A stretch of DNA of 64,000 bases from Roseobacter sp. (GTDB taxonomy: Bacteria > Pseudomonadota > Alphaproteobacteria > Rhodobacterales > Rhodobacteraceae): NCBI GenBank assembly GCA_002731875.1, contig PCCY01000019.1:195666-259665 (forward strand). Reading direction: 5' to 3'. A program made the position numbers and the translations under genes. The notes beneath the pieces were generated by a model that made no database searches, had not been told where the DNA came from, and saw nothing but the letters and a program-made list of their open reading frames with translations. Of this stretch, positions 21,251 through 40,902 are shown one piece after another (the stretch's first letter is position 1; each line of letters starts with the position of its first letter).

Positions 21251-21253
21251 GAT

Positions 21254-22123: not shown

Positions 22124-22144
22124 TTTAGGACCTCCCCCCACATG

Positions 22145-22172
22145 AAAAACCCGGCCACAAAACGCAGCCGGG
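22145..22172 (-). terminator. Hairpin with T tract between binding-protein and permease genes (attenuator)
   Basis: On the minus strand CCCGGC (22172-22167) pairs with GCCGGG (22155-22150) and is followed by five T. It stands 8 bases after the binding-protein stop and before livH. This is typical of partial termination that raises binding protein over membrane components. Confidence 0.7.
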
Positions 22173-22180
22173 TTGTTGTT

Positions 22181-23353: not shown

Positions 23354-23395
23354 TTTGGTTCCTCCAGTTGATTTTCAGACCGTTCTTATGTCGGC

Positions 23396-24175: not shown

Positions 24176-25194
24176 GCGGCATCCGCCTCTGTTTCTGTCG
24201 GGTTGAACTTCTCGAAGTAGAAATTGGCAGGTTCCACACCAAGTGTAGCGAAATGGCCACGCACCGCATCCACCATGGGCGGCGGGCCACACAGATAGAC
24301 ATCGACATTGCCCCCGTTCAGATCATCCCCCGAGAGATGATCGGTGACAAAACCCTTACGTTCGTGCGCGTCCTCTTCTGCCGCCAGAACCGTGATCACT
24401 GTGACATTGCCGATCTGCTTGGCCAGCGCTTGCACGCGGTCCAGTTCCACCAGATCCGCAGCACGGGTTACTGCATAATAGAGCGTGATCGGCTGATCGT
24501 TGCCCTGCTCCGCCAGATGCTCCAGCATCGACAGGAAGGGGGCAAGACCCGTACCACCTGCCAGCCAAAGCTGGGGACGTTCCATCGGGCGCAAGTAGAA
24601 TGCGCCCATCGGTCCGGTCAGCGTGATTGCATCACCACCCTTGGCGCGCTCGCCCAGATAGCTGCTCATCACACCACCGGGGATGTTGCGGATCAAAAAA
24701 TGGCCTTCATCCGCGCCCGGTTTGGACGAGAATGAATAGGAGCGGTGTTTGTCTGTGCCCGGCACGCTGACGTTCACATATTGACCGGGCAGAAAGCCCA
24801 TAGTCTTGGCCATCTTAACGCGCAGGCCAAACGACGTATCGGACAGCCGGTCCACACCCAGAACTTCGCCGACCACAGGCTCAGGCGCTGTTTTGCAGAC
24901 AGCAGAGGTAGCAGGCACCCGCACGACACAATCGCTCAACGGTGACATCTGACAGGTCAGGACATAGCCTTCGGCGGCTTCCTCCTCCGTCATCGCTTCG
25001 TCAAGGTAGAATTCCAGCTCGAACTCGCCCTTTTCGGCAAAGCACTTGCACGTCCCGCAAACGCCATCACGGCAATCCATGGGGATGTTAATTTTCTGGC
25101 GAAAGGCGGCCTCGGTCACCATCTCGTCGTCTTCACATTGAATGACGCGGGTGACGCCATCCTCGAAATTCAGGGCTACGTTATAGGTTGTCAT
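24172..25194 (-). CDS. benC: Benzoate 1,2-dioxygenase reductase component
   Basis: 340 residues with three domains. The first is a plant-type [2Fe-2S] ferredoxin (about 1-95), with the cluster Cys in CRDGVCGTCKC and VLTCQM. Next is an FAD-binding barrel (HRSYSFSS at the flavin). Last is an NAD-binding lobe (WLAGGTGLAPFLSMLEHL, VYLCGPPPMVDAVR). It passes electrons from NADH to the BenAB oxygenase in the cytoplasm. It lies 73 bases downstream of benB. Confidence 0.93.
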   Translation of the reverse strand: MTTYNVALNFEDGVTRVIQCEDDEMVTEAAFRQKINIPMDCRDGVCGTCKCFAEKGEFELEFYLDEAMTEEEAAEGYVLTCQMSPLSDCVVRVPATSAVCKTAPEPVVGEVLGVDRLSDTSFGLRVKMAKTMGFLPGQYVNVSVPGTDKHRSYSFSSKPGADEGHFLIRNIPGGVMSSYLGERAKGGDAITLTGPMGAFYLRPMERPQLWLAGGTGLAPFLSMLEHLAEQGNDQPITLYYAVTRAADLVELDRVQALAKQIGNVTVITVLAAEEDAHERKGFVTDHLSGDDLNGGNVDVYLCGPPPMVDAVRGHFATLGVEPANFYFEKFNPTETEADAA

Positions 25195-25267
25195 GGCATA
25201 CTCCTCCCTTGGTCGCGCGCCCGTCGGTGGGCGCGCGCTGTGTCAAAAACCGCAGTATTGGCCTGCT

Positions 25268-25786
25268 TTAGATGTGGTAGACGTCAATCACGTGGTGGAT
25301 GTGGTCGTTCTTGAGCACGATTTTCTTGTCCGTGATCAGAGGCTTGGGGCCGGACGTATCCAGCGTGTAGAACGACATCCCCCAATGGCTGTCCGTATTG
25401 CCATAGCGGTAGGTCAGCGTGTGCCAGTTAAAGCGCAATTTGATCTGCGTCCCTTCGCGGCTCAGTACCTCAATGTTGGCAAGGTGGTGCTGGGTACGCG
25501 GCTCTGGCAGAGACGTGGCCGAGGAACGGTCCGTCTGGATGCGGAATACGCGGTCCTCGATCCCCGATTTGTTCGGGTAATAGATCAGGGACATCTCGTT
25601 TTGTGGATCTTCCGTCAGCATGTCCTCATCGTCCCATGCGGGCATCCAGAACGGGCAGTCAGCGTGATAAAACCCCAGCCATGTATCCCAATCGCGATCA
25701 TCAAGGGCACGCGCTTCGGCATAAAGGAACGACTGGATGTCTTCGAAACCCAACGATGATGTCTTCTCGAGTGTTGCAGTTGTCAT
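25268..25786 (-). CDS. benB: Benzoate 1,2-dioxygenase small (beta) subunit
   Basis: 172 residues matching ring-hydroxylating dioxygenase beta subunits: FLYAEARALDDRDWDTWLGFYHADCPFWMP at the N-terminus and a cone-shaped beta-sheet core with RFNWHTLTYRYG near the C-terminus. The subunit is structural. It begins 12 bases after benA. Confidence 0.92.
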   Translation of the reverse strand: MTTATLEKTSSLGFEDIQSFLYAEARALDDRDWDTWLGFYHADCPFWMPAWDDEDMLTEDPQNEMSLIYYPNKSGIEDRVFRIQTDRSSATSLPEPRTQHHLANIEVLSREGTQIKLRFNWHTLTYRYGNTDSHWGMSFYTLDTSGPKPLITDKKIVLKNDHIHHVIDVYHI

Positions 25787-25798
25787 GATCTTATCTCC

Positions 25799-27187
25799 TC
25801 ATTCAGCCGCAACTTGGGCACTGGCTGCGTTTTCGCGTTCCTTGGCAACGGCTGCTGCCATACGCTCGGCCCATTGAGTGTGCTGGATCACGAACAATCC
25901 CTCGTCCTCGGTGCGCGCACCTGACATGATCGGATTGATCCCCAATGCCTTTGCATCCTCGTCCGGCCCCTCGATCCACTGGGTTGCACCCCGGCAGATG
26001 TCGTTCCATTTGGCGTGTGCAGCGCCCGCATACCCGCGCTGGGTCGCACGGAATTCTTCGGTGTCATCGGGCGTCGCCATGCCGGAAGCGTTGAAAAAAT
26101 CCTCATATTGGCGGATGCGCAAGGAGCGTGACACCTGATCTTCGCCCTTTGGCGCGATGCAATAGATCGTGACTTCGGTCTTATCGACACTGATCGGGCG
26201 AAACACTCGGATCTGGCTGCTGAACTGGTCCATCAAGAAGACGTTGGGGTAGACGCAGAGGTTGCGCAGCACGCCGACCATCCATTCGGCCTTGGTCTTG
26301 CCGTAGGTCTCGGTCCATTCGTCCAGACGGGCATAGTTCGGGCGTGTGGTCGGATTGTCCCATGTGGTCCAGAGCAGCAGGTGGCCGTTCACATAGGAAT
26401 GAAAACCACCCTTCTGCTTGGCCCATTTGGAGGCATCAGTCGCTTTGATATTGTCCTCTTTACCGTCCACGGTGCGGTGCGATGTGGTGGCAACGTAATT
26501 CCAGTGAACCGCCGAGACGTGGTAGCCATCCGCGCCGTTCTCGGCCTGAAGCTTCCAGTTGCCATCGAAGGTGTAGGTGGAGGAGCCGCGCAGCACTTCC
26601 ATGCCGTCCTCGGACTGGTCAACGATCATGTCGATCATCTTGCAGGCCTCGCCGAGGTATTCCTCGAGCGGTGCAACATCAGCATTAAGCGAGCCGAACA
26701 GGAACCCGCGATAGTTCTGGAACTTCGCCACTTTTGTCATGTCGTGGCTGCCGTCTTTGTTGAACTGCTCGGGGTAGCCCGCGCCTTTGGGGTCTTTGAC
26801 CTTCAGGAGCTTACCGGTGTTGGCAAAGGTCCACCCGTGGAATGGGCAGGTAAATGTCTTTTGGTTGCGGCGCTTGAACCGGCACAGCATGGCACCGCGG
26901 TGCGAGCAGGAATTGACCAGTGCGTTCAGCTCGCCGTCTTTGTCTCGGGTGATGACCACAGGTGTGCGGCCCATATGCAGTGTGAAATAATCGCCCGGGT
27001 TCGGGATCTGGCTCTCGTGGGCCATGTAAATCCAATTGCCCTCATAGATGTGCTTCATCTCCAGCTCGAACAGCTCTTCGTCTGTAAACATGTCGCGGCG
27101 GGCGCGGAAAATTCCCTTTTCTGGGTCGTCTTGCACGATGCCGTCAAGGCGGCTTTCAAGCTCGTCGAGATTTGAATGGGTAAACAT
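25799..27187 (-). CDS. benA: Benzoate 1,2-dioxygenase large (alpha) subunit
   Basis: 462 residues. The Rieske cluster ligands are in CSHRGAMLC and CPFHGW (about residues 93-116). The mononuclear iron site is in [16 protein letters not shown], with the bridging Asp and the two His. It oxidises benzoate to the cis-1,2-diol-1-carboxylate. Anthranilate or toluate dioxygenases share these motifs; adjacency to benD and catB favours benzoate. It follows catB by about 50 bases. Confidence 0.92.
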
Positions 27188-27241
27188 ATTCAGTCCTCCT
27201 CTGGGTGCCGCGCCTTTGTGGCTGGCGGCGTTTTGATGGTG

Positions 27242-28390
27242 TTAAACTTCCGCGAGATGCTTTTGCGGGGTGCTCTTGTTACGGTCGAAATAGGCGACCT
27301 TGTCGTCGTCGAGCGCCACGCCAATGCCGACGCCTTGCGGGACCTCAACGCAGAAATCATTGTAATTTATCGGCTCTGCCAGAATATCGTCGGTCAGCAG
27401 AAGCGGGCCGAACAACTCGGTCCCCCAACTCAGCTTCTCGACGGTGCAGAAAAGCTGCAGCGCCGCCGCCGTGCCCAGCCCAGTCTCCAGCATGGTGCCT
27501 GCGTAGAGGCCAAGGCCCGCTGCCTGCCCGATGGCCACAACCTCGGAGGCGCGCTTGATCCCGCCCGATTGTGCGACTTTCACCGCGAAGACATCCGCCG
27601 CCGCATTGGCAGCAATCTCAAGCGCGTCCTCGGGGCCGTTCAGTACCTCGTCCGCCATGACCGCAATCTCGTATTTCGCTGTCAGTTCGCGCTGCGCCTC
27701 GACATAGCGGCCCTGCACTGGCTGCTCGACCAGCTCACAACCAGCGTCCTGCAACCCTTTGAGACCCCAGCGCGCATCGTGTAACGACCACGCTTGATTG
27801 ATGTCCACCCGCACAGAACCTGCATCGCCCACAGCGCGTTTGATGGCGGCCACATGGGCTACATCATCGCGAACAGAGCGTTTGCCGATCTTGAGCTTGA
27901 ATATATTATGGCGGCGCGTCTCGATCATCTCCAGCGCCTCAGCGATATCGGTATCGGAGGAGCCGGAAGCCAGCGTCCATGCCACCGGCATGCGGGCATA
28001 CACCTGCCCGCCAAACAACTGCGAAACCGGCACACCAAGACGCTTGCCCAGCCCGTCCCATAGCGCGATCTCAACTGCCGCTTTGGCAATCCGGTTGCCG
28101 CGCACAAGCTTGTCCATCAGCTGGATTGAGGTGTTCACATCGTCCGCACCTTTGCCCTTGAGTGCAGGTGCGATGTAAGTAGCGATGGCAGATTGAATAC
28201 TTTCGGGGCTCTCGACACAATATGTGAGGCCGCCGATTGTCGTGCCTTCCCCGATTCCAGTCGATCCATCCGAAAACCTGATCCGCACAAGAACGGCCGT
28301 TTGCGAGCGCATCGTCGCCATCGAAAGTACATGGCCGCGAATGGTCGGGACATCGACAACGACGGTTTCAATCTGATCAATCTTGGTCAT
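27242..28390 (-). CDS. catB: Muconate cycloisomerase (enolase superfamily)
   Basis: ATG at 28390 (MTKIDQIETVVVDVP) gives 382 residues. Catalytic residues of muconate-lactonising enzymes are visible: K-x-K in FKLKIGK, Asp in VRVDIN, Glu in VEQPVQ, Asp in MADEVL and Lys in VKVAQSGG, with MLETGLGTAA near the end. It converts cis,cis-muconate to muconolactone. It heads the long leftward operon catB-benABCD-ABC importer. Confidence 0.9.
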   Translation of the reverse strand: MTKIDQIETVVVDVPTIRGHVLSMATMRSQTAVLVRIRFSDGSTGIGEGTTIGGLTYCVESPESIQSAIATYIAPALKGKGADDVNTSIQLMDKLVRGNRIAKAAVEIALWDGLGKRLGVPVSQLFGGQVYARMPVAWTLASGSSDTDIAEALEMIETRRHNIFKLKIGKRSVRDDVAHVAAIKRAVGDAGSVRVDINQAWSLHDARWGLKGLQDAGCELVEQPVQGRYVEAQRELTAKYEIAVMADEVLNGPEDALEIAANAAADVFAVKVAQSGGIKRASEVVAIGQAAGLGLYAGTMLETGLGTAAALQLFCTVEKLSWGTELFGPLLLTDDILAEPINYNDFCVEVPQGVGIGVALDDDKVAYFDRNKSTPQKHLAEV

Positions 28391-28992
28391 GCGGCGTCCT
28401 CTGGTAGCAATGATGCTTCGAGGATCAGAATGCGCAGGAGGAGTGGTTGTCGGCGATACACGGGCAGGTCTTGGTTGATACCCTTCGCGGCAATGCTGCA
28501 TTTGAGAGCCCGCGCCTGCGCCGCATCATGACTTGGATCATCAGCCGATTATCGAGCCTTGCACGGGCAACCAAAACCATGGCTGATTGCAGGTCGAAAC
28601 ATAGAATAGGACCTAAAAAAAACCGCCGTTCAGGCCGCGGCTCCATTTGCGACACAAATTGGCTGTGCATGGAGATTGACAGTATAGGGTACAGCGGTCC
28701 GTCAGTTGGAATAAGCCAATGGCCGAGTAAACCTTTCTTTTTCTAATTTCTGTTCATGAAGCGTAGCTATCATCAAACCAAATGCACAGTCTCAGGAATG
28801 TCGACTTTCGAAATCGCGAGAAATCGTATTTTAAGCCGCTGCGAACGACCGCATTCCGCCCGTTATACCTATAGTCGCTCCCGGCACAGACCGGACCGTC
28901 GTCAGGTAGATTATCGCTGCGTCGCAACCTACCCGAAGCTGTCATTCTTGTTGCGTCGATTGACCCCACTCGGATTGGCTTTTCGCGCCTCT
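28391..28992. other. Upstream region of the catB-ben operon; no gene
   Basis: This 600-base stretch must contain the catB operon promoter and the end of the upstream LysR transcript. On the minus strand a weak GC-rich stem is followed by eight T (about 28640-28615), a possible lysR terminator. I did not find a convincing copy of the GGTATT-N4-AATACC operator seen at catA. Confidence 0.4.
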
Positions 28993-29883
28993 TCAAGGCA
29001 AGGCGCGCACATCTTCGGCAGCGAAGTCGATGAGCGTCCGTATCTTTCGAGGTAAGGTCCGACCCTCAAGATAAACGGCAGTAATCGGCCCCCCATCCAT
29101 GTCGAAATCCTCCAGCAAAGGAACAAGGCGCCCGGTCTCCAGCATGTCCGAGATAGCAAACCGCGGCGCATAGGCGACTCCCATGCCGACCGCGGCCAGC
29201 TCGATTGCTGCCCTGGCTGAGTTGACATGGAATCTGCCTCGCACTTGGGCGATGACCTCAGCACCGTCCTTTCTGAACCTCCACCGATGTGGCTGGCGCC
29301 GGTTGGTGTCGACGATGCAGGCGTGTCGAGAGAGGTCATCTGGTATTTGCGGACAACCATATTTATTCACGTAGTCCGGATGTGCCACCAGTGAGGTGTG
29401 AAACATGCCGAGCTTGCGCGTCTTCAGTGACAGCGTCTCCGACACGCCCATCCGGAACGCGAGGTCGATGCCGTCGGCGGCCAAGTCGACGTAGCGATCG
29501 TCCAGCCTCAGGTCAAAAGTCACATCCGGGTGTGCTTCGGCAAAGCGGGCCAGCATGCCAGCCACGTAGACCTCACCAAAAGTTACAGGCGCCGAGACCC
29601 GGATGATCCCGGTCAAACCGCGCGACCCCTCTGACACGGAGCCCAGAAGAGCGTCGAGTTCATCGAGGACGGCTGGCGCCCTCGCGAGAAGATCCTCTCC
29701 GGCCGGCGTTAGCCCGACCTTCCGGGTCGTTCGCTGGAGTAGCCGCGTGCCGAGGCGCGCTTCCAATTCGGCCACGTATTTCGAGGTCAGGCGGTTCGAT
29801 ACACCCAGTTGTGCGGCGCCCGCGGTGAAGGAGCCGGTCCGCGCGGTGGCCACGAAGGCCTTGAGCTCGTCGACAATATCCAT
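28993..29883 (-). CDS. LysR-type regulator of the divergent quinone-detoxification operon
   Basis: Start at 29883 is chosen because AAAAGG lies six bases upstream; the ATG at 29889 would touch it. 296 residues: HTH with FVATARTGSFTAGAAQLGVSNRLTSKYVAELEARLG, and an effector domain in the AaeR/DhcR-like group (DLRLDDRYVDLAADGIDLAFRMG; AAVGMGVAYAP). It is divergent from the Rossmann reductase-DoxX-VOC-GST operon across 131 bases, the usual LysR arrangement with its target. Confidence 0.88.
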   Translation of the reverse strand: MDIVDELKAFVATARTGSFTAGAAQLGVSNRLTSKYVAELEARLGTRLLQRTTRKVGLTPAGEDLLARAPAVLDELDALLGSVSEGSRGLTGIIRVSAPVTFGEVYVAGMLARFAEAHPDVTFDLRLDDRYVDLAADGIDLAFRMGVSETLSLKTRKLGMFHTSLVAHPDYVNKYGCPQIPDDLSRHACIVDTNRRQPHRWRFRKDGAEVIAQVRGRFHVNSARAAIELAAVGMGVAYAPRFAISDMLETGRLVPLLEDFDMDGGPITAVYLEGRTLPRKIRTLIDFAAEDVRALP

Positions 29884-29917
29884 GGGCATCCTTTTAGGAA
29901 CAAAATCGCGACAGTCA

Positions 29918-29943
29918 TTCCATAACATCGTCATTTGATGGAA
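29918..29943. promoter_or_regulatory. Inverted repeat in lysR/operon divergent promoter
   Basis: TTCCAT (29918-29923) and ATGGAA (29938-29943) are exact inverted arms. Inside them CATC and GATG form a second pair spaced by seven. It lies 35 bases from the lysR start and 72 bases from the operon start, a fitting place for a LysR box. Confidence 0.4.
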
Positions 29944-30014
29944 GATTGGGAAGCCTTACTTTCGCTCCAGTGAACACAGGCTGCCCCGAGGGCGGCGAAG
30001 CGAAGGAGAGTGCA

Positions 30015-30590
30015 ATGCGTATCGCTGTAATAGGAAACGGAAACGTCGGCTCCGGGCTTGCTTTGGCGCTGGGCCGGGCCGGTCACGAGGTGACCACCAT
30101 CGGCCGCAGCGACGATCTCTCCGCCGCCGTCTCTTCGGCGGAGCTGGTGGTTCTGGCCACGCCATACGGCGCCCTTGCGGAACTTGCCGGCAAGGCCGAC
30201 TTCATCGGCAAGACCGTCATCGATGTCTCGAACTCGGTAACCGAGGATTTCTCAGGTCTTCAAGTCAGGCACAAAACCTCGGCCGCCGAGGAGATTGCAT
30301 CCCTGCGGGCTGGCGCGACGATGGTGAAGGCTTTTAACACGATCTTCGCCAAGAACTACGGCAAGGGCCTCAAGGTGAACGGACAACCGATCCGGGCTTT
30401 CGTCGCCGCCGATGACGATGCCGCGCGCGGAACGGTCAAGACCCTGGCAGCCGATATTGGCCTCGAGCCGGTCGATGCCGGCCCGCTCGTCAACGCTCGC
30501 TATCTCGAACCCATCGGCTTCCTCAATATCCAGTTCGGCTACGTCTTCGGTCACGGCACCGAGATCGCACCGCGCTGGCAGTTTTCTTAA
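30015..30590 (+). CDS. Rossmann NADP-binding reductase (NADPH:F420-reductase/prephenate-DH-like family)
   Basis: ATG at 30015 follows GAAGGAG. 191 residues begin MRIAVIGNGNVGSGLALAL, a dinucleotide-binding motif, followed by TIGRSDDL and VVLATPYGALAELA. ATMVKAFNTIFAKNYG matches the segment after the nucleotide domain in Fno-like proteins. Such small NADP-binding proteins (YrpB/DUF2000-like annotations vary) act as reductases of unknown substrate. It heads an operon with a DoxX protein, a VOC dioxygenase and a hydroquinone reductase, so a role in redox handling of quinones is plausible. Confidence 0.75.
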   Translation: MRIAVIGNGNVGSGLALALGRAGHEVTTIGRSDDLSAAVSSAELVVLATPYGALAELAGKADFIGKTVIDVSNSVTEDFSGLQVRHKTSAAEEIASLRAGATMVKAFNTIFAKNYGKGLKVNGQPIRAFVAADDDAARGTVKTLAADIGLEPVDAGPLVNARYLEPIGFLNIQFGYVFGHGTEIAPRWQFS

Positions 30591-30613
30591 CCTACCCCCA
30601 CGGAGTATTTCAC

Positions 30614-31036
30614 ATGACCACGCAAACTAATACCGCCTATGCCGCCGCCGCCCTTCGCATCTCGACCGGTGTCCTATTCCTCGCCCATGGCTGGATGAAG
30701 GTAAGCGTCTTCACGATCCCCGGCACGGTAGCCTTCTTCGAAAGCCTCGGCCTGCCCGGCGTGCTCGCCTACTTCACGATCTTCGCAGAGCTGGCGGGCG
30801 GCATCGCCCTGATCCTCGGCGTCGGCACCCGCCTCGTCTCGCTCGCACTGATCCCTGTCCTCCTGGGCGCGACTTGGGCCCATTCCGGCTTTGGTTGGAG
30901 CTTCTCGAACGAAGGTGGCGGCTGGGAATACCCGCTGTTCTGGGCGGTAGTGCAAGGTGTTGTTGCCGTCCTGGGACGCGGAGCCTTCGCGCTGCACATC
31001 ACGGAACTCGACCGTCGGCGCGGCCAGTTCGCCTGA
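30614..31036 (+). CDS. DoxX-family membrane protein (CatD-like)
   Basis: 140 residues with four hydrophobic segments and the DoxX signatures RISTGVLFLAHGWMKV, FESLGLPGVLAYFTIFAELAGGIALILG and GWEYPLFWAVVQGV. In Bacillus subtilis the DoxX protein CatD is encoded with the VOC dioxygenase CatE and protects against catechol and quinones. The same pairing is seen here with the next gene, so a CatD-like role is inferred. Confidence 0.85.
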   Translation: MTTQTNTAYAAAALRISTGVLFLAHGWMKVSVFTIPGTVAFFESLGLPGVLAYFTIFAELAGGIALILGVGTRLVSLALIPVLLGATWAHSGFGWSFSNEGGGWEYPLFWAVVQGVVAVLGRGAFALHITELDRRRGQFA

Positions 31037-31096
31037 ACGCCCTTGGCGGCCGCGAGCCACCGCCCGCGGCCGCGCTCTCTACGAAGGAGAACTGAC

Positions 31097-31960
31097 ATGA
31101 CCATTAACAATAACTTTTTCGACACGCATGCAGCACCGCTTCGCGTTGGGACTGTCCGGCTCAAGGTGCGTGATCTCGATGCGGTCTCCACCTTCTACCA
31201 GAGTGTACTCGGGCTTAGCGCGGTCGCGACCAGCGACCATCGCGTCACCCTTGGCGTCGGCAGCTCTCCACTTCTGGTACTTGAGGGCGACTCGAGTCTC
31301 TCCCCGCTTGATCCGCGCCAGGCCGGACTTTTTCACACCGCCTTCCTTATGCCAACCCGATCTGACCTGGCCCGCTGGGTCGCCCATGTCGCCGAGGCGC
31401 GGGTGCCGCTTCAGGGGGCCTCGGATCATATCGTCAGCGAGGCAATCTACCTTGCCGATCCAGAGGGCAATGGCATCGAGGTCTATGCGGACCGACCGGT
31501 CTCGGCATGGCTTGGTGAGGCCGGCGAGATCCAGATGAGCACTGACCCGTTAGATCTGCCAGGCTTGCTGCAAAGTGCCGAAGGCACCGAATGGTCAGGA
31601 TTTCCGAACAACGGCAGCATCGGCCATGTCCACCTGCAAGTGGGCGGCACGGCCGAGGCCGATGCTTTCTACCGCGACGTGCTCGGCCTTGATATCGCGG
31701 CGCGCTATCCGGGTGCCAGCTTCTACGGCAGCGGCGGTTACCACCATCAGCTTGCCGGCAATATCTGGAACAGCCGGCGGGTCGGCAAACGCCCCGAGGG
31801 GATGGCCGGTCTCGATGCTGTAGAGATTCTTGTCCGGAGCCCGAACGACCTCGCGGCCATTGCCGCACGAGCCGAAAGCGCCGGCAATGCAAGTATCACG
31901 GACACGAACGGCCTCACCCTGCACGACCCCTGGGGCACCGCCATCACGCTCAGGACCTGA
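31097..31960 (+). CDS. VOC-family extradiol dioxygenase, CatE-like (catechol 2,3-dioxygenase)
   Basis: ATG at 31097 follows AAGGAG. 287 residues contain two VOC modules. The first begins VGTVRLKVRDLDAVSTFYQSVLGLS; the second begins SIGHVHLQVGGTAEADAFYRDVLGLD. The metal ligands are probably the His of IGHVHLQV, the His of the AGLFHTAF/NGLTLHDPWG segments and a Glu (GNGIEVY). It resembles B. subtilis CatE, which cleaves catechol between C2 and C3. It sits in a stress-type operon rather than the ben-cat operon. Confidence 0.82.
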   Translation: MTINNNFFDTHAAPLRVGTVRLKVRDLDAVSTFYQSVLGLSAVATSDHRVTLGVGSSPLLVLEGDSSLSPLDPRQAGLFHTAFLMPTRSDLARWVAHVAEARVPLQGASDHIVSEAIYLADPEGNGIEVYADRPVSAWLGEAGEIQMSTDPLDLPGLLQSAEGTEWSGFPNNGSIGHVHLQVGGTAEADAFYRDVLGLDIAARYPGASFYGSGGYHHQLAGNIWNSRRVGKRPEGMAGLDAVEILVRSPNDLAAIAARAESAGNASITDTNGLTLHDPWGTAITLRT

Positions 31961-31972
31961 GGAGAGACGACC

Positions 31973-32911
31973 ATGCTGAAAAACGGAAAATGGGTTGCCG
32001 ACTGGCAGCCGGTCCAGGCCAAGGACGAAAAAGGCGGCTTTGTCCGCCAGACCTCCAGCTTCCGCAACTGGATCACGCCGGACGGCAGCGCCGGGGCGAC
32101 CGGCAAGGGCGGCTTCAAGGCCGAGCCGGGGCGCTACCACCTCTACGTTGCACTGATCTGCCCGTGGGCCTCGCGGACGCTTATCGGGCGCAGGCTGAAG
32201 GAGCTGGAAGATGCGATCTCGGTCTCCGTGGTCGAACCGGAGCTCTCCGACCAGGGTTGGCGGTTCGGCGATCCGGCCGAGGCTGAGGGTGCTTCCTACA
32301 TGCACGAGATCTACACCCGGGCCGATCCGACTATCTCGGGCCGGGCGACGGTACCGGTGCTTTGGGACAAGAAGCGCGGGACCATCGTGAACAACGAGTC
32401 CGCCGACATCCTGCGGATGCTGAACTCCGGCTTCGGAGAGCTAACAGACGAAAACATTGATCTCTATCCGGTGGACCTTCGCGAGAAAATCGACGCTCTG
32501 AACGACCGCATCTATCCAAGCTTGAACAACGGCGTCTACCGCACGGGCTTCGCGACGACGCAGGTCGCCTATGAGGAAGCATTCCACGATGTCTTCGCGA
32601 TGCTCAATGAACTTGAGGAGCGCCTCGCTGACGGCCGCAAGTTCCTTTTGGGAGATCGCTTCACCGAGGCCGATCTGCGGCTCTTCGTGACGTTGGTGCG
32701 CTTCGATGTGGCCTATTTCGGTCTCTTCAAGTGCAACCTGCGCCGCATCGCGGACTATCCCGCCCTGAGCCGCTATCAAGCCCGTATCCTCGCCATCCCC
32801 GGGGTGCGCGATACGGTCAGCATTGACCACATCAAGCGCGGCTACTACTCGATCAAGGCGCTGAACCCCACCGGTATCGTTCCTCTCGGACCGGAGCGGG
32901 CCCCGGTCTGA
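31973..32911 (+). CDS. Glutathionyl-hydroquinone reductase (Xi-class GST)
   Basis: 312 residues with the thioredoxin-fold active site LICPWASRT; the Cys is residue 63, the same position as in E. coli YqjG. The family motif GRYHLYVALICPWA and the late FTEADLRLFVTLVRFDVAYFGLFKCNLRRI are typical of Xi-class GSTs. These enzymes remove glutathione from glutathionyl-hydroquinones. As last gene of the operon it completes a set that traps and clears electrophilic quinones. Confidence 0.9.
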   Translation: MLKNGKWVADWQPVQAKDEKGGFVRQTSSFRNWITPDGSAGATGKGGFKAEPGRYHLYVALICPWASRTLIGRRLKELEDAISVSVVEPELSDQGWRFGDPAEAEGASYMHEIYTRADPTISGRATVPVLWDKKRGTIVNNESADILRMLNSGFGELTDENIDLYPVDLREKIDALNDRIYPSLNNGVYRTGFATTQVAYEEAFHDVFAMLNELEERLADGRKFLLGDRFTEADLRLFVTLVRFDVAYFGLFKCNLRRIADYPALSRYQARILAIPGVRDTVSIDHIKRGYYSIKALNPTGIVPLGPERAPV

Positions 32912-33368
32912 AGCTTCGGTCATCCGCCCGGATCAAAACCTTGGCACGCGCGGGGCGCACCAGCGCCGCCAGCCACTGCTCACTCGGAACCCGAAGGCCG
33001 CCACGACGTTGGTGACGGCAGTCCAAAAATGTCCGCTTTAAGATCACCGAAGTCGCCGCTTCGCACTTGCAGCGGAGGTCCGCTTTCCGCCCATTCTGTT
33101 GAAAAACTCTTCGCTGCGTCTGCAAATTTTCAGAAATCAGAAACCTGTTCTCCGTTAATCATAGCACACTCAGAAAATACGGAAAAACTTTAGAAAATCA
33201 AAATAGTATTCTGCCAGATTTGCCCTGAAGGTCCGATATCGGAGTTTTTCAACGAAATACGCCTATTGTGTTGAAAAACTTTAATGCACCGCATCAGGGC
33301 CAAATTTGGGAGAACAAAATTCCGAACTACCCAAATTTCGACGGCGTCAGGTGGCGCGATAAAACTCG
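32912..33368. other. Non-coding, repeat-bearing border of the mobile region
   Basis: No gene recognised. G+C drops after about 33110. Three copies of an 11-base element lie within 185 bases (see the repeat entry). The stretch leads into the decayed cupin gene. Confidence 0.5.
33098..33280. repeat. Three copies of GTTGAAAAACT (two direct, one inverted)
   Basis: GTTGAAAAACT is at 33098-33108 and 33270-33280, and its inverse AGTTTTTCAAC at 33243-33253. The last two form an inverted repeat with a 16-base spacer. Such elements could be transposon-end remnants, but no full inverted repeat or target duplication can be assigned. Confidence 0.55.
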
Positions 33369-34073: not shown

Positions 34074-34814
34074 ATGGATCAAGACCGGATTGGCACTTCC
34101 AGCGAGAGGGCTGAGGGCATGATGCCCCATCGGGCCGACGATGCCACCGCCAACGCGCCCGCCAATGATGCGCTGCCTGAGCGTCCGGACACCGACCGCA
34201 AACCGGGGGTGGGTGCCAAGAAGCACTTCTCCTGTGCCTTCGTGTACGGCCCTGGCGCGGGTGTTGTTATGAACACGGACAGCCTCACCGAGAAACGTGT
34301 CGCGCTCGTGCTGCTGGCGCGACCCGATGTCGTCAAGCTGGAAAACCAGGTAGGCTTCATCTGGGAGGCACGCGACGGGTCGACTCACACGCACTTCTTC
34401 GACTTCCGGGCGACAATGGTGGATGGCATCCGTGTGGCGATCATGGTCAAGTACGACGCGAAGCTCAAGCAGGAAGAGTTCCGGGCCGAGATCGCCGAAA
34501 TTGCAACCCAGGTCACCCCGGAGTTCGCGGACCGCGTAACACTGATGACCGAGAAGCATCTCGATCCCATCGACGTGTTCAATGCAACCCTGTTCAATTC
34601 CGTCCGGCACCCGGACGATGAAGCCGACGCCATCATGCGCCAAACCATCCGCAGGCTGAATGGCGCCGCGAAGGTTGGTGACCTAATCGCTCATACCGGC
34701 CTGAAGGGTCGTGGTTTTCGGTCCATAGCGCGCCTCATCGGGTCCCGCGAACTCGCACTCCAGGAACGGGTCCGCGTGGATTACGATAGCCTGGTCATGC
34801 GGGGTGTTGCCTGA
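34074..34814 (+). CDS. TnsA-like PD-(D/E)xK transposon endonuclease
   Basis: 246 residues. After a disordered N-terminal ~50 residues, the catalytic pattern of TnsA can be followed: Glu73 in SLTEKRVALVLLARPDVV, Asp110 in THFFDFRA and Lys126 in IMVKYD, equivalent to E. coli TnsA Glu63, Asp114 and Lys132. LARPDVVKLENQV matches the 'PDV..I..QP' stretch before the core. The C-terminal ~100 residues could be the winged-helix TnsC-contact domain (VGDLIAHTGLKGRGFRSIARLI). Its stop overlaps the TnsB start (TGATG). In Tn7 TnsA cuts the 5' ends so that the element moves by cut-and-paste. Confidence 0.75.
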   Translation: MDQDRIGTSSERAEGMMPHRADDATANAPANDALPERPDTDRKPGVGAKKHFSCAFVYGPGAGVVMNTDSLTEKRVALVLLARPDVVKLENQVGFIWEARDGSTHTHFFDFRATMVDGIRVAIMVKYDAKLKQEEFRAEIAEIATQVTPEFADRVTLMTEKHLDPIDVFNATLFNSVRHPDDEADAIMRQTIRRLNGAAKVGDLIAHTGLKGRGFRSIARLIGSRELALQERVRVDYDSLVMRGVA

Positions 34815-37057
34815 TGCTCAATTTACAATGCAGCCCGAACATGCCGCGCTTTGCCTTTGGCGAATATGATGAGGTGCTCATCGACGGGGTTTCGTACCGC
34901 GCGACGGATTGCTCCGTCGACGGCTACGTGTTCGTCCGAACCGACGCCAGAGGCGTTGCAGAGTCCTTTCCCCACGCCGTCCTGTCCCAGCGCGTAGCAA
35001 ACGGGACGCTCGAACATCGGCGTGACGAGTTCCTCCCGGAAAATGCAAAACGGCGCCTTCGCCAGCCGACCCGGGAACTATCGACCCTTTCGCCGAAGGC
35101 TCAACGCAGGGCCAAGTATCACGAGTCACTCGTTCTGGCGTTCCTCAAAATGGAAAAGGAGGGCAAGGTCAAACGTACCGAAGCGTCCACCAAGACCGTC
35201 CTTGAAGAGATAAAATATCGAGCAGGTAAATACTACTCGGTGCCCAGCGACTCCGATGAAGGACAAGTTAAAAGGAACACGCGAGTGTCACCCAACAAGG
35301 TCAGTGCAGGCAGGCTGCTGAAGCGCGTTGCGGCATACTCCCGGGATGGTCTCACGGCGCTGTACGGGCAGGACATTCAGAACAACCGCGCGCGGCGCAT
35401 CGGTCCGGATGAACTGTGCCTGCTGTCGAGGACAATTCGCAACTACCTGTCCCCAGAGCAGCCCACGATTGCTTTCGTTGTCGAAGACGTCCATCGCGCC
35501 TTCCTTGCGGAAAACGAACGCCGAAAGGCACTGATCGAACAGGAACGGAATGGCGAAGTTCGGGGGCGAAAAACTTCCCTCTTGGAATTGCCATCCCGCG
35601 AAACCATTCGGCGAGAAATCGGCAAGCTCGACCCTTTCGAAGTCGTCGTTTCGCGTGAAGGCCTCGAGAAGGCACGCAAGAAATTTGCCCCAGTTGGCAT
35701 GGGGCTGACCGTGACCCGGCCGCTCCAGCGGGTCGAGATGGACGCATGGAAGGTCGATCTCAAGACTATCATGGCGACCGCTGGGATTTGGTCGAAGCTC
35801 GAAGACAAAGAGAAAGCTGCCTTCGGCCTGGAGGATGGCAAAAAGACCCGCTGGTTCTTGATCGCGGCCATGTGCACGACAACGCGGTGTATCCTCGCCA
35901 TGAAGCTGGCCCGCGCCGAAAGCGGCCGGGCTGCGGTCCAGACGATCGATATGATCGTGCGCGACAAGGGGGTCTGGGCTGATGCCGTGGGCACCCTAAC
36001 CCCTTGGAACATGTCTGGAACGCCCGAACTCATCGTCACCGATGCCGGTTCGGGCTTCATCGATTTCGACACCCGCGCAGGGGCTACCGACTTGGGCATC
36101 GCCATCGATGCAGGGCCGGCCGGCATGCCCGAGTTTCGCGCCAGGATAGAGAGGATGTTTGGCACCATGGCCAGCAGTTTCATCGGGCGCTTCACGGGCC
36201 GCACATTCCGCAACACGGTCGTCAAGGGCGACTACGATTCCGACAAGCGGGCGGCACTGACGTCTGAAGAGCTCAGCGAAGCCCTCGTGCGTTGGGTCGT
36301 GGACGTCTACCACCGCCGCCCGCATGCGGGCCTTGGCGGGGAAACGCCGCTGAATTGCTGGAACCGCCTCGTCGAGAAATTCGGGGTCGCCCCAATGCCG
36401 TCGCTGGAACGTCGCCGCAAGGCGCTGGGAACGCGCACAAAATACACCGCGCAGAAAGATGGCATTACTATCTTGGGCGTTCGCTACCACTCGAAGGTAT
36501 TTGCACGGTGGTTCATGCATGCACGGGACAGGGAAGTCCGTGTTCGCTGGTATTCTGAGGACATCGGTGCCATCGCAGTAGAACTGAACGGCGCTTTCGT
36601 CGAGATCCCTGCGGTTCTGACGCGATTCTGTGGTCAGCGTGCGCAGACGTGGCTGATGGCCGTGCGTGAAATCCGTGCGGCGCGGGCTGCCGAGGCCAAG
36701 GTTAGCGAGCAGATCATCGCCCAGACCATGGACCACATCGTGGCCATGAATGCCAACGCGATGGCGCGCCAGGGACTGTTCGTCGAGGATTTCTCCGAGG
36801 AACGGCTCAAGCGGCTCGAAGACACACAGCTGATCGGCTTCGAGGTCGAGGACACGCCCCGCGAGCCCATTGCTCCGTCCGGAGACGATGGCCTCGGCGC
36901 GGAGTTGCTCACTAACCAATCGCGCTCGGGTCGCCAGCGCGCCGCGCGCTCTAAAGCTGCCGCAACTGACGCGACCGCAATCCATGGTGCCACGGACGCG
37001 GTCGACGTCTACGGCCTCACCAACTCCGACGTGGGCTGGTCCATCGAGGACAATTAA
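34814..37057 (+). CDS. TnsB/Mu-type DDE transposase
   Basis: 747 residues. N-terminal DNA-binding helices precede an RNase H-like rve core with the DDE triad Asp310 (VEMDAWKVDL), Asp410 (LIVTDAGSGF) and Glu446 (RARIERMFGT). A Mu-transposase-type beta-barrel follows (GVRYHSKVFARW, VRWYSEDIGAIAVEL), then a long charged tail that in TnsB/TniA proteins contacts the ATPase. Coupling to the TnsA-like gene shows they act together. No TnsC-type AAA ATPase or TniQ follows; instead a strong terminator does. Confidence 0.9.
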   Translation: MLNLQCSPNMPRFAFGEYDEVLIDGVSYRATDCSVDGYVFVRTDARGVAESFPHAVLSQRVANGTLEHRRDEFLPENAKRRLRQPTRELSTLSPKAQRRAKYHESLVLAFLKMEKEGKVKRTEASTKTVLEEIKYRAGKYYSVPSDSDEGQVKRNTRVSPNKVSAGRLLKRVAAYSRDGLTALYGQDIQNNRARRIGPDELCLLSRTIRNYLSPEQPTIAFVVEDVHRAFLAENERRKALIEQERNGEVRGRKTSLLELPSRETIRREIGKLDPFEVVVSREGLEKARKKFAPVGMGLTVTRPLQRVEMDAWKVDLKTIMATAGIWSKLEDKEKAAFGLEDGKKTRWFLIAAMCTTTRCILAMKLARAESGRAAVQTIDMIVRDKGVWADAVGTLTPWNMSGTPELIVTDAGSGFIDFDTRAGATDLGIAIDAGPAGMPEFRARIERMFGTMASSFIGRFTGRTFRNTVVKGDYDSDKRAALTSEELSEALVRWVVDVYHRRPHAGLGGETPLNCWNRLVEKFGVAPMPSLERRRKALGTRTKYTAQKDGITILGVRYHSKVFARWFMHARDREVRVRWYSEDIGAIAVELNGAFVEIPAVLTRFCGQRAQTWLMAVREIRAARAAEAKVSEQIIAQTMDHIVAMNANAMARQGLFVEDFSEERLKRLEDTQLIGFEVEDTPREPIAPSGDDGLGAELLTNQSRSGRQRAARSKAAATDATAIHGATDAVDVYGLTNSDVGWSIEDN

Positions 37058-37080
37058 CACGCCACCTCGAGTGCAATCTA

Positions 37081-37116
37081 AGCCCTCGCAGTCATTGACG
37101 GCTGCGGGGGCTTTTT
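37081..37116 (+). terminator. Strong terminator after the transposase
   Basis: AGCCCTCGCAG (37081-37091) pairs with CTGCGGGGGCT (37102-37112) with one G-T pair and a 10-base loop, followed by a T tract. It closes the two-gene transposition operon, so the absence of TnsC is not simply a cut in mid-operon. Confidence 0.85.
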
Positions 37117-37351
37117 CCTGGCCGCGTCAGACATGTTTTCTTCTGGTCGAAGCGACTTTCCAACTGCCCCGAGAAAACTTAGCGCGGTCCCTGTTTTTTT
37201 CTTCGTCATCGGTAGAGTCGGCCAATCTCTTCTATGCAAGGGCAGCAGATACGCTGCGCGCGCGACAACGAAACGACCAGCAAAGGATGACATCGGCGGA
37301 CAGGCTTGAAGCTGCCATGAATGGCTCAGCACAGCTCACAGGAGGAATACC

Positions 37352-37762
37352 ATGCTGCGCACCCTATCAACGAACCAGTCCACTGACCCTCAACACGCTG
37401 CTGTCAGCGGGCACCTTGCTCAGCAGGGCGAGGCGCTCCGCAATGCCGCCAACCTCTTACACGGCCAGACCGGCGAGGCCCGCGTGTTGCGGATCATGTC
37501 CGACCTCCGCACGACGACCAAGTTGAAGCTCGCCACGCGGCGCCGTCTGGTCAATCTCCACCGCATGATCTCTCTCGACCCGCTGTTCGGCGATCCGGAG
37601 ACAGATGCGGGCCCCTGGCAATTCCTCGATCCGGGCAGCCGGGAGGTCGAGGATATCTGCCTGCTGGCGGAGGGACTCTTCGCCCTGCTCGTCGAAATCG
37701 GGAAACTGGACGACAAAATGGACGTCTTCGCGCTGGCAGTCCACGACCAGGACGCAGCCTGA
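37352..37762 (+). CDS. Unknown small protein downstream of transposase
   Basis: 136 residues; AGGAGGA at 37340-37346 supports the ATG at 37352. No family recognised. The N-terminal half is polar; a basic stretch (RTTTKLKLATRRRLVNLHRM) lies in the middle, followed by an acidic, helical C-terminal part (EVEDICLLAEGLFALLVEIGKL). No membrane segment or signal. It precedes another unknown gene by 42 bases and the pair shares one terminator, so they form an operon. They may be cargo of the element or host genes beside it. Confidence 0.7.
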   Translation: MLRTLSTNQSTDPQHAAVSGHLAQQGEALRNAANLLHGQTGEARVLRIMSDLRTTTKLKLATRRRLVNLHRMISLDPLFGDPETDAGPWQFLDPGSREVEDICLLAEGLFALLVEIGKLDDKMDVFALAVHDQDAA

Positions 37763-37804
37763 ACCCGCCCCCGGCCCACCTTCAAACGACATGAGGATAC
37801 CGCG

Positions 37805-38242
37805 ATGAAGCACTTCGAACACCTGTCCCTGGAAGAGTTCTGGACCCGGACGCTCCAAGAAATAGACCGCCTCCACGCTCAGACCGAGCGGACCGAAGAA
37901 GAGCTATCGGCAACCGAACGGAACACGCTGTTGCAATCCATTGCCAGGCTCCGCCACGATGGCCCCCTGGCAGACGGTGCCGAGGATCATGTCAGCCGTA
38001 TCGAGGCCCTGCTGGTCGAAGCCGTCGACCGCGAAACCCTCGGCTTTCGCGGGGTATTCGACGGCCACAACGACCCGGATCACGGCGCAGTCGGCATAGT
38101 CCGCGCAGTCCCCATCCTTTCGGAACAGGGATGCGTTCTGGAAGGCATGCTCCAGGGTTTGCGGATGATCGCCGCGATGCGGGCGCTGCTCTCGGCGCGG
38201 GTCGATGCGCACCGCCAGATGGCCCTGCTGAAAGCGGCGTGA
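37805..38242 (+). CDS. Unknown small protein, second gene of the pair
   Basis: 145 residues, mostly helical, starting MKHFEHLSLEEFWTRTLQEI and with a second helix-rich end (GMLQGLRMIAAMRALLSAR). Acidic overall. GAGGATACCGCG precedes the ATG. No family is recognised. Its terminator is an unusually long perfect palindrome. Function cannot be assigned. Confidence 0.7.
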   Translation: MKHFEHLSLEEFWTRTLQEIDRLHAQTERTEEELSATERNTLLQSIARLRHDGPLADGAEDHVSRIEALLVEAVDRETLGFRGVFDGHNDPDHGAVGIVRAVPILSEQGCVLEGMLQGLRMIAAMRALLSARVDAHRQMALLKAA

Positions 38243-38616
38243 AGCGGGCTCGCGTCATCAGCTGATTGCGTCTCAGACGCCAGGCCGGACCTCGGCCTGC
38301 AAGGTCGTCAGCTCACCACCGCACCAAGAAGGCCGCAGGGAGACCTGCGGCCTTCTTCGTTGGAATGGTGTGCGCCGGGTATCACTCCCATCAGGATTAC
38401 CGCTCGAAAAAAGTTTCGACTTTCGCTTTCCGTCTCGGCCTACCGGACCCATATTCCAATCAAGGCCGACAAAGCGCGAAATCGACCGCACAGGCACGGG
38501 AACCCCGCTTTCCCAGCGGAATTCCCCAATGGACGTCGTTAGCGTGCGAATAGCCGTTTTTTCGGCCAAAATGGCCAAAGTAAGCGTGTTATCTCAACAA
38601 AATATCAAAACCAACG
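38243..38616. other. Non-coding; possible right border of the mobile region
   Basis: Apart from the terminator, no gene. Near 38570 there is GGCC-AAAAT-GGCC, and read leftward from 38605 the sequence starts TGTTGAGATAACACGC. That shares TGTTGA with the left-side repeats, but no flanking duplication was found. Confidence 0.4.
38326..38357. terminator. Perfect palindromic terminator after the unknown gene pair
   Basis: AAGAAGGCCGCAGG (38326-38339) is exactly complementary to CCTGCGGCCTTCTT (38344-38357), loop GAGA. The A-rich left and T-rich right flanks make it potentially bidirectional, serving the unknown pair and the converging nrdJ. Confidence 0.85.
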
Positions 38617-40902
38617 TTAGCCACTGCACTTGCTGTATCCGCAACTGCCGCACGTCATGCATCCTTCGATCATGCGCAAGTCGAATTGCCCACAACTGCT
38701 GCATGCCTTGCCGCGCGGTGCGTCAATGCCCACGACCTTGGCCTGAGGGTCTGATTTCAACCCCATTCCTTCACCCGCGATGAATCCTGTGGCAATCATG
38801 TGTTGTTCGATGACACCTCCAATTGCCGCCAGCATCGATGGAATATATTTGCCTCCCATCCATGCCCCGCCCCGGGGATCAAAGACGGCCTTCAACTCTT
38901 CCACAACAAAGGACACGTCGCCGCCGCGCCGGAATACGGCTGAAATCATCCGGGTCAACGCTACCGTCCAGGCGAAGTGTTCCATGTTCTTGGAGTTAAT
39001 AAACACTTCGAACGGGCGGCGATGGCCACTTATGACCACGTCATTGACAGTAATGTACAGCGCGTGTTCACTGTCAGGCCACTTGATCTTGTAGGTTGAT
39101 CCCTCCAGCTCTTGCGGGCGATCAAGAGGGTCCGACATATAGACCACTTCCCCGCCCTCCTGAACAAGCGGTTGAGCCGCTGTTTCACCCGGAGCGCTGT
39201 CCGTCGCCTCGGATACCGACAGAACCGAACCGGTGACATCGTTGGGTCGGTACGTTGTACAGCCTTTGCACCCTTGATCCCAAGCGGCCATGTATACATC
39301 CTTGAAAGAGTCAAAACTGATGTCTTCCGGACAGTTGATGGTTTTGGAAATGCTGGAATCCACCCATTTTTGTGCAGCCGCCTGCATCTTCACATGGTCA
39401 AGCGGGGCTAGGGTCTGGGCATTCACGAAATAATCCGGCAACGGAGCATCGCCTTTCAGGTCGCGCCACAGTTGCACCGCATAGTCCACGACCTCCTCTT
39501 CGGTCCTGCTTCCATCCTTCTGCAGCACCTTTCGCGTATAGGCATAGGCAAACACCGGTTCGATCCCGGAGCTCACGTTACCTGCATAAAGACTTATCGT
39601 GCCAGTAGGCGCGATCGAGGTCAGCAAGGCATTGCGGATACCATTGTCCGCGATCGCAGCGCGTACTTCCTCATCCATCTGTTGCATCGTACCGGACGCC
39701 AGATAGGCATCAGCGTCAAAAAGCGGAAAAGCGCCCTTCTCCTTGGCCAGTTCCACCGAAGCCAGATATGCCGCGCGCGCAATAGCCTTGAGCCAACTTT
39801 CGGTCTGCGCCGCAGCTTCGTCTGATCCGTATTTCAACCCGACCATTAACAACGCATCAGCAAGACCGGTGACGCCCAGGCCAATGCGACGTTTCGCCTT
39901 GGCCTCAGCCTGTTGCGCTTCCAGCGGGAATTTCGACACATCTACGACGTTATCCATCATGCGCACCGCAGTGGCGACCAGATGGTTCAACGCGTCGACG
40001 TCCAGATGGGCAGCTGCATCGAACGGATCGGCGACCAGACGGGCCATGTTGATTGATCCCAGCAAACAGGCCCCGTAGGGTGGCAGGGGCTGCTCTCCGC
40101 ACGGGTTGGTCGCGGCAATGGTCTCGCAATAGCTCAGGTTGTTGGCAGCATTGATACGATCAATGAAAATCACGCCGGGTTCCGCAAATTCATAGGTCGC
40201 CTTCATGATGCGGTTCCATAGATCGCGCGCCTGCACCGTACGGTACACCTTACCGCCGAACTGCAAATCCCAAGCACTGTCAGATTTCACGGCATCCATG
40301 AAAGGGTCAGTGATCAGGACGGACATATTGAACATGCGCAACCGAGCCGGATCAGACTTCGCGGCAATAAAGTCTTCAACGTCAGGATGGTCACAGCGCA
40401 TCGTCGCCATCATCGCACCGCGTCGAGATCCCGCAGACATAATCGTGCGACACATGGCGTCCCATACGTCCATGAAGCTCAGCGGCCCGGACGCATCTGC
40501 GGATACCCCCAGCACGTCCGCTCCTCGGGGCCGGATTGTCGAGAAATCATACCCGATCCCGCCGCCCTGCTGCATGGTCAACGCGGCCTCTTTGAGCATA
40601 TCAAAGATCCCGCCCATACTGTCAGGTACCGTGCCCATGACAAAACAGTTGAACAAAGTCACGCGACGAGCCGTACCCGCCCCGGCAGTGATACGACCCG
40701 CGGGCAGAAACTTGAAATCTTCCAAGGCTTCGAAAAAGGTTTGCTCCCAAGCCTCGGGGGCTTTTTCCACCTGCGCAAGATCGCGCGCGATCCGCCGCCA
40801 ACTATCCTCGACAGTCATATCGCGCGGCGTGCCGTCCGCATCTTTAAAGCGATACTTCATATCCCATATCTGTTCGGCAATGGGGGCAGCAAATCGTGAC
40901 AT
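38617..40902 (-). CDS. nrdJ: Adenosylcobalamin-dependent (class II) ribonucleotide reductase
   Basis: Start at 40902 (MSRFAAPIAEQIW) gives 761 residues. It has the radical-domain loop NPCGEQPLPPYGACLLGSIN with the thiyl Cys and Glu, FNCFVMG with the redox-active Cys, QQGGGIGYDFS for substrate binding and PTGTISLYAGNVSSGIEP. The C-terminus carries Cys pairs (CSSCGQFDL and CMTCGSCGYSKCSG) that reduce the active site. It reduces ribonucleotides to deoxyribonucleotides using vitamin B12 coenzyme, independent of oxygen. It is divergent from the DUF1489 gene. No cobalamin riboswitch is evident upstream. Confidence 0.95.
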   Translation of the reverse strand: MSRFAAPIAEQIWDMKYRFKDADGTPRDMTVEDSWRRIARDLAQVEKAPEAWEQTFFEALEDFKFLPAGRITAGAGTARRVTLFNCFVMGTVPDSMGGIFDMLKEAALTMQQGGGIGYDFSTIRPRGADVLGVSADASGPLSFMDVWDAMCRTIMSAGSRRGAMMATMRCDHPDVEDFIAAKSDPARLRMFNMSVLITDPFMDAVKSDSAWDLQFGGKVYRTVQARDLWNRIMKATYEFAEPGVIFIDRINAANNLSYCETIAATNPCGEQPLPPYGACLLGSINMARLVADPFDAAAHLDVDALNHLVATAVRMMDNVVDVSKFPLEAQQAEAKAKRRIGLGVTGLADALLMVGLKYGSDEAAAQTESWLKAIARAAYLASVELAKEKGAFPLFDADAYLASGTMQQMDEEVRAAIADNGIRNALLTSIAPTGTISLYAGNVSSGIEPVFAYAYTRKVLQKDGSRTEEEVVDYAVQLWRDLKGDAPLPDYFVNAQTLAPLDHVKMQAAAQKWVDSSISKTINCPEDISFDSFKDVYMAAWDQGCKGCTTYRPNDVTGSVLSVSEATDSAPGETAAQPLVQEGGEVVYMSDPLDRPQELEGSTYKIKWPDSEHALYITVNDVVISGHRRPFEVFINSKNMEHFAWTVALTRMISAVFRRGGDVSFVVEELKAVFDPRGGAWMGGKYIPSMLAAIGGVIEQHMIATGFIAGEGMGLKSDPQAKVVGIDAPRGKACSSCGQFDLRMIEGCMTCGSCGYSKCSG

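Follow-up and report, generated by a model that had tools for sequence, protein, structure and literature searches.

When tnsA and tnsB are found without tnsC behind them, do they belong to a reduced transposon, or does the remainder of the transposition machinery lie elsewhere? This question is raised by a stretch of 64,000 nucleotides (nt) from Roseobacter sp. (contig PCCY01000019.1, here C19:195666-259665 and called the window), in which tnsA and tnsB are followed by a hairpin, by two small genes, ORF1 and ORF2, and by the host gene nrdJ (Table 1). A preliminary description of this DNA preferred an unusually small TnsAB element without TnsC, with ORF1 and ORF2 as substitutes for the regulator. 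Our analysis indicates instead that the tnsAB-ORF1-ORF2 stretch is very probably the right end of a 52,315-base-pair (bp) Tn7-like cut-and-paste transposon beside nrdJ, the core of which is split between its two ends.

Most of what had been described within the window was borne out. TnsA contains a Glu/Asp/Lys endonuclease site, with Glu73, Asp110 and Lys126 verified at their positions; in an alignment of eight sequences the first two residues are present in all and lysine at position 126 in seven. The match of TnsA to Pfam TnsA_N is weak and under the cut-off (0.0085), and nothing meaningful was matched among solved structures. For TnsB, the positions of Asp310, Asp410 and Glu446 were likewise verified, and the protein matches the PHROGs transposase family phrog_310 (1.9e-43) as well as TnsB and TnsAB chains of solved structures (best 1.7e-18). 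Two distant TnsB-like genes are present elsewhere in the source genome, on contigs C36 and C9. The stop codon of tnsA and the start codon of tnsB share the sequence TGATG, in agreement with the proposed translational coupling. The hairpin straight after tnsB, in an operon without tnsC, and the palindromic one after ORF2 were each scored against 200 shuffled sequences and proved more stable than all of them; the former looks like a native terminator.

Within the window, tblastn searches with the proteins of relatives as queries found neither tnsC nor tniQ, and to this extent the earlier statement that both are missing stands. It does not extend to the contig: tniQ (649 amino acids, aa) and tnsC (346 aa) lie next to each other on the minus strand at C19:182165-185069, about 45 kb upstream of tnsA. 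TniQ matches PF06527 (3e-19; C19:183595-183993), which is the sole match to this family in the source genome. TnsC, encoded at C19:184031-185069 and thus outside the window, matches TniB PF05621 (1.1e-15), and this copy is the single relative of the protein detected in the source genome. Loss of tnsC from this copy, which had been considered, is ruled out by its presence upstream on C19. As C19 carries tnsC and tniQ in cis, the small proteins need not stand in for the ATPase.

The element occupies C19:181947-234261, its left end lying just beyond tniQ and its right end 15 nt past the stop codon of nrdJ, with the sequence ACAAA on both flanks. With this size and with tniQ-tnsC at its far end, it is anything but the unusually small element that had been suggested. 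The 5-bp repeats are identical at both ends in all three elements for which two ends were found (ACAAA here, ACAAG and ACAAC in the two relatives described below). Sites resembling GGCCATT with up to one mismatch number five in 150 bp of the left end and three in the right end, whereas 1036 inner segments of 150 bp average 0.57; five sites are reached in one of these segments and three in 29, so that the right end alone is moderately unusual. The corresponding numbers at the left and right ends of the relatives are four and four (Paracoccus seriniphilus) and four and three (Pararhodobacter marinus). Within C19:165000-259665 we found no further intact end of this type, be it left or right, and a scan for left ends using the right-end sequence with up to four mismatches gave matches at chance level. 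The two other end types introduced below have no close match inside the element, the only one being a four-mismatch match of the third type at C19:191638. In addition, the G+C content is 57.4% inside the element, 64.5% to its left and 59.6% to its right. The ends and target repeats that the preliminary description had called for were thus found, whereas the comparison with empty sites gave no clear answer: in the 13 relatives fetched the left flank is not simply beside nrdJ, and the sites of several relatives are occupied by other elements.

The same split is present in a second, closed record. On the P. seriniphilus plasmid NZ_CP067132.1, tniQ and tnsC share a strand at the left end, whereas the right end has tnsA-tnsB-ORF1-ORF2 on the opposite strand and adjoins nrdJ; this element of 26,266 bp is flanked by ACAAG and carries restriction-modification cargo between the two core halves. 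Its proteins are 67% (TnsC), 56% (TniQ), 65% (TnsB) and 70% (TnsA) identical to those of the source element. A shortened copy of 18,107 bp with the repeat ACAAC and the same two ends exists in P. marinus (G187:C24, taken as NZ_QEYD01000003.1); retained are the left end and, of tniQ, the last half together with a short N-terminal stretch. The P. marinus genome has four other TniQ matches on different contigs and no detectable relative of this TnsC, and it is to this copy that the earlier suggestion of a lost ATPase does apply. The order tnsA-tnsB-ORF1-ORF2, which the preliminary description had proposed to search for, is found in four loci, namely the source, P. seriniphilus, P. marinus and genome G146, and in none of the relatives of this clade is tnsB separated from ORF1 by tnsC. 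In G146, including its second contig L163, a left end of the split type was not found.

Our tnsB survey comprised 51 distinct loci, selected by score: 40 from a search of 292 genomes (of which 111 matched), seven from plasmids, three from further genome contigs, and the window. Since tnsC lies on the same strand within 1.5 kb behind tnsB in 41 of the 51, the split layout is unusual among related tnsB loci. Two further loci have tnsC 1.5-4 kb behind tnsB (L059, L065) and two are interrupted by a contig end (L045, L052). The remaining six are the window, P. seriniphilus, P. marinus, G146, Rhodobacter sp. CZR27 and Loktanella S4079, the match in the last being limited to the last part of tnsB. 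In a TnsB tree of 50 rows, from which L030 and a duplicate were excluded, the source, P. seriniphilus, P. marinus and G146 are monophyletic (100/100, four rows) and CZR27 is placed elsewhere; in the TnsC tree the source and P. seriniphilus form a pair (100/96, two rows). Both trees group the split rows with the canonical G098, G050, G219 and L029, among which location at nrdJ was demonstrated for G098 and G050 only. The CZR27 plasmid (L036 8291-14939) has tnsAB of another TnsB clade at nrdJ and, in the opposite orientation, two small genes; on this 860-kb replicon no TniQ and no relative of this TnsC were detected, the chromosome being outside the search.

These loci bear directly on the small TnsAB element regulated by ORF1 and ORF2. 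Its gene order is indeed kept in four loci, P. marinus lacks a detectable relative of this TnsC, and CZR27 combines tnsAB and two small genes at nrdJ on a replicon without TniQ. However, the TnsB of CZR27 falls outside the clade and its chromosome was not part of the search, the tniQ of P. marinus shows the kind of truncation expected of a decayed copy, and both the source genome and P. seriniphilus carry tnsC and tniQ in cis. Moreover, ORF1 relatives stand beside canonical elements that retain tnsC (G050, G098) and in islands with other recombinases. We regard such an element as very unlikely and have rejected it, given tnsC and tniQ in cis at the far end.

The 3' end of nrdJ is probably a new attachment site that is common to several related element types and filled in tandem. 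In all five loci with an end of the split type (source, P. seriniphilus, P. marinus, G146 and G322), the distance from this end to the stop codon of nrdJ is 12-16 nt plus the 5-nt target site, and a second end type was seen by eye at the same place in seven genomes (G050, G098, G233, G331, G279, G388 and G204). In G050 and G098 a canonical element is found at nrdJ, with ORF1 beside nrdJ and tnsA-tnsB-tnsC-tniQ at the far side, pointing away. The TniQ proteins of these two share 41-45% identity with their counterparts in the split elements and that of G219 41-44%, while other TniQs compared reach at most 32%.

nrdJ clearly gathers elements in tandem, as a right end of another type was recognised by eye immediately left of the left end in both P. 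seriniphilus and P. marinus. To the left of the source element, a decayed gene resembling ORF1 and a remnant resembling ORF2 are accompanied by a GC-rich hairpin and an end-like repeat (C19:180850-181946, L101 15800-16947), all read by eye except for the ORF1 match; they probably derive from an earlier element that had inserted at this site, in tandem with the present one. End-like repeats of a third type (GTAGTTATGCCA / GTAAGTTTTGCC) were observed by nrdJ together with a DnaQ-like exonuclease in L122, L124, L211 and L041 (about 14650-15668), and in G146 they stand in tandem with the split-type element. G146 also shows GTTTGCG repeats and relatives of ORF2 and ORF1 (58% and 54%) beside the 3' end of gyrB (L103 8435-11011), and related elements may use gyrB as an attachment site as well.

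Tandem insertion suggests a different origin of the 52 kb, namely an array or patchwork in which tniQ-tnsC and the left end stem from one nrdJ insertion and tnsAB-ORF1-ORF2 and the right end from another that lacks its left half. Several observations, besides the neighbouring ends and remnants just described, weigh in this direction or qualify the reading as a single functional transposon. The DnaQ-like exonuclease gene that adjoins tnsC is also a neighbour of nrdJ in G294 and G299, and parts of the 52 kb may therefore come from older insertions. Since elements that home to one site give all junctions of a tandem array an identical repeat, the repeat fits either case and does not by itself prove that both ends belong to one insertion. 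Its frame was fixed by alignment to P. seriniphilus, an earlier reading having been AAATA with a shift of 3 nt, and the ends of the canonical G098 element are not paired by a target repeat. The complete split with both tnsC and tniQ is seen in two elements only, as P. marinus has a tniQ remnant and the tniQ piece of G146 adjoins another end type. The termini of the source copy are TAT...TCA (TGA when the right end is read inward), whereas those of P. seriniphilus and P. marinus are TGT...ACA, and TGT is the typical terminus of such transposons according to the part of a review consulted (PMC11406308); the source copy may be impaired, less active or dead, or the end call may be slightly off. 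Finally, the mobility of the element is read from its sequence, and transposition itself is predicted. The patchwork nevertheless appears improbable to us. P. seriniphilus has the same split with a matching divergence of TnsA, TnsB, TnsC and TniQ, P. marinus pairs the left end and a tniQ remnant with tnsAB, and the 52 kb have a single end of this type on each side and no close match to another end type inside, all of which argue for one transposon.

ORF1 and ORF2 had been described as members of unrecognised families, and indeed no family was found above the cut-off in Pfam, NCBIfam, PHROGs or PADLOC, the best match being that of ORF2 to CorA (sub-threshold, 0.0054). Pfam searches with 14 ORF1 and 14 ORF2 relatives returned a single sub-threshold CorA match, and comparison of the profiles of these relatives with solved structures gave nothing convincing (best 0.024 for ORF1 and 0.51 for ORF2). 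The structure models are poor, with a mean predicted local distance difference test score (pLDDT) of 58.9 for ORF1 (three sequences) and 65.6 for ORF2 (two sequences), and the ORF2 model found nothing in Foldseek at E<=0.001.

The distribution of the two genes is more telling. Of 390 genomes from the order, 47 contain ORF1 relatives, often in several copies, and 12 of the 15 closest places in these genomes (at least 48% identity) adjoin nrdJ; of the other three, one lies beside gyrB (G146:C34, L103), the remaining two being located on contigs of about 5 kb without nrdJ. Outside these 15, P. seriniphilus has a second ORF1 (54%) about 35 kb from nrdJ and Loktanella a copy (74%) on a contig without nrdJ. 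ORF2 is rarer (19 of 292 genomes) and was undetected in eight of nine newly fetched close ORF1 loci, G322 being the one that has it. Distant ORF1/ORF2 pairs were recognised by eye from translations in islands with tyrosine or serine recombinases (L205 9413-10420, L206, L107, L109 and L203); the C11 and C12 copies of such a pair in the source genome have identical scores and may be duplicates. From this occurrence on the nrdJ side and in recombinase islands it follows that ORF1 and ORF2 belong to mobile elements, of which several kinds carry them close to an edge. We do not regard them as a substitute for TnsC. Relatives without tnsAB do exist, a possibility raised in the preliminary description, but they reside in other mobile elements and are not ordinary host genes. 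We also considered that both might be host genes by nrdJ beyond which the transposon landed, as the 12 of 15 copies adjoining nrdJ could suggest. This is highly improbable and was rejected: the two genes are on the element side, inside the right end, ORF1 is sporadic across genomes, 17 of 18 other genomes of the genus have an nrdJ match, a high-identity ORF1 being absent from all 14 of these 17 that the ORF1 and ORF2 searches covered by name, and the nrdJ flanks inspected in relatives of the genus differ among themselves.

How might the split element work? In its layout, tniQ and tnsC (minus strand) come first on the left, the cargo next, and tnsA-tnsB (plus strand), ORF1 and ORF2 last on the right. 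By analogy to Tn7, TnsB would occupy the GGCCATT-like sites of the two ends and, jointly with TnsA, excise the element, the long TniQ (TnsD-like in size) would recognise the 3' end of nrdJ, and TnsC would link TniQ to TnsAB, the proteins presumably cooperating from opposite ends. The canonical nrdJ element, in the orientation of the window and with LE and RE for left and right end, reads LE-tniQ-tnsC-tnsB-tnsA-cargo-ORF1-RE-nrdJ. A single inversion of the segment from tnsB through the cargo could have given LE-tniQ-tnsC-cargo-tnsA-tnsB-ORF1-ORF2-RE-nrdJ, which equals the observed order; an inversion intermediate was not seen among the loci examined. More tentatively, the split elements may be a distinct nrdJ-homing Tn7-like lineage that still works after one inversion of its core, with the separate expression of TnsAB and TnsC-TniQ from opposite ends ensuring that only complete elements are mobile, and with ORF1/ORF2, always beside the nrdJ-side end, as an accessory module that controls the target site or tandem arrays and also exists in unrelated recombinase islands.

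With Tn7 itself (TnsABCDE, attTn7 downstream of glmS) the element shares a core of TnsA, TnsB, TnsC and a TniQ/TnsD-type protein, a target duplication of 5 bp, clusters of TnsB-type sites at either end and insertion right after a conserved gene. It differs in its target, nrdJ instead of glmS, in the additional ORF1/ORF2, in that no TnsE was recognised, and in the placement of tnsAB and tnsC-tniQ at opposite ends, diverging outward. A core in one operon, which is usual although not universal in Tn7-like elements, is not found here, as the two halves are about 45 kb apart on opposite strands. The canonical Rhodobacterales nrdJ elements (G050, G098) are the nearest TnsB/TnsC relatives in the best-supported common clade and share the nrdJ target and ORF1 at the nrdJ-side end; however, their tnsA-B-C-tniQ genes form a single operon on the far side, their right-end sequence is a different one and ORF2 was not detected in them. 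In another known Tn7-type case the target selector gene is apart from tnsABC in one element, but there tnsC stays with tnsAB. The Tn5053 and Tn6022 families also combine TniQ-based targeting with TnsB- and TnsC-type proteins, yet have other targets and partners (TnsF in Tn6022), and the portions of the sources used here report no comparable split. A phage Mu-like element, with MuB beside the transposase, phage genes and no TnsA, does not fit, as TnsA and TniB/TniQ are present and no phage genes were noticed among the cargo genes examined. CRISPR genes did not turn up in the element, although no search was aimed at them. According to the part of Benler et al. consulted (PMC8649781), a tnsC-family ATPase is encoded by 96% of 6,549 Tn7-like transposons, so that elements without tnsC in its usual place are a known minority. 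Neither the nrdJ attachment site nor the split of tnsAB and tnsC-tniQ is reported in the literature searched, including the portions seen of PMC10293859, PMC8649781 and PMC11406308; supplements, preprints and subscription papers lay outside it and an earlier mention is possible. The split layout thus appears to be new.

Catabolic genes of benzoate type in the cargo code for the benzoate transporter BenE, a coenzyme A transferase, BKACE, an alpha/beta hydrolase, an ABC transporter, a short-chain dehydrogenase, the beta and alpha subunits of a ring-hydroxylating oxygenase and a muconate cycloisomerase-like protein. BenE of at least 60% identity is present in one of 18 other genomes of the genus, with 32-34% in four more. 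In addition, a methyltransferase-like gene (window 3671-4534) matches PADLOC type II methyltransferase models (3.6e-39) and has no Pfam match at 1e-5, and a short open reading frame of the phage-integrase family (window 8832-9314, 160 aa) is probably a remnant. The cargo of the G050 element (L194 13215-16294) resembles, by eye, a Gabija-type defence pair (ATPase/nuclease and UvrD-like helicase).

Table 1. Features of the element and its surroundings, in window positions unless C19 is given.
Feature	Position	Strand	Basis or remark
tniQ, tnsC, left end	C19:181947-185069	tniQ/tnsC minus	10.6-13.7 kb before window base 1
Cargo of same element (portion in window)	1..33000		
Benzoate-type catabolic cargo	12161..28501	-	
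LysR-like gene within catabolic stretch	17927-18817	+	
tnsA-like endonuclease gene, 246 aa	34074..34814	+	E73/D110/K126 site; weak Pfam TnsA_N
tnsB DDE transposase gene, 747 aa	34814..37057	+	profile, structure-chain and catalytic-residue matches
Hairpin, probable terminator of tnsAB	37080..37113	+	shuffle test, z -4.6
ORF1, 136 aa, element-end gene	37352..37762	+	open reading frame list, relatives' loci
ORF2, 145 aa, element-end gene	37805..38242	+	open reading frame list, relatives' loci
Hairpin, probable terminator of ORF1-ORF2	38325..38358	+	shuffle test, z -6.8
Right transposon end, GGCCATT-like sites	38447..38596		last base 38596
Right copy of 5-bp target duplication ACAAA	38597..38601		left copy C19:181942-181946, outside window
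Host nrdJ, B12-dependent ribonucleotide reductase	38617..40902	-	3' end = presumed attachment site; start by eye at MSRFAAP motif

The locus also serves as a caution that a limited window can make a complete transposon appear defective. With the DNA-cutting and the target-choosing halves of a Tn7-type machine at opposite ends of a large element, it would offer a natural test of core co-expression. The 3' end of nrdJ should be useful for locating cargo islands in marine Rhodobacterales and may perhaps serve as a landing site for integration tools.

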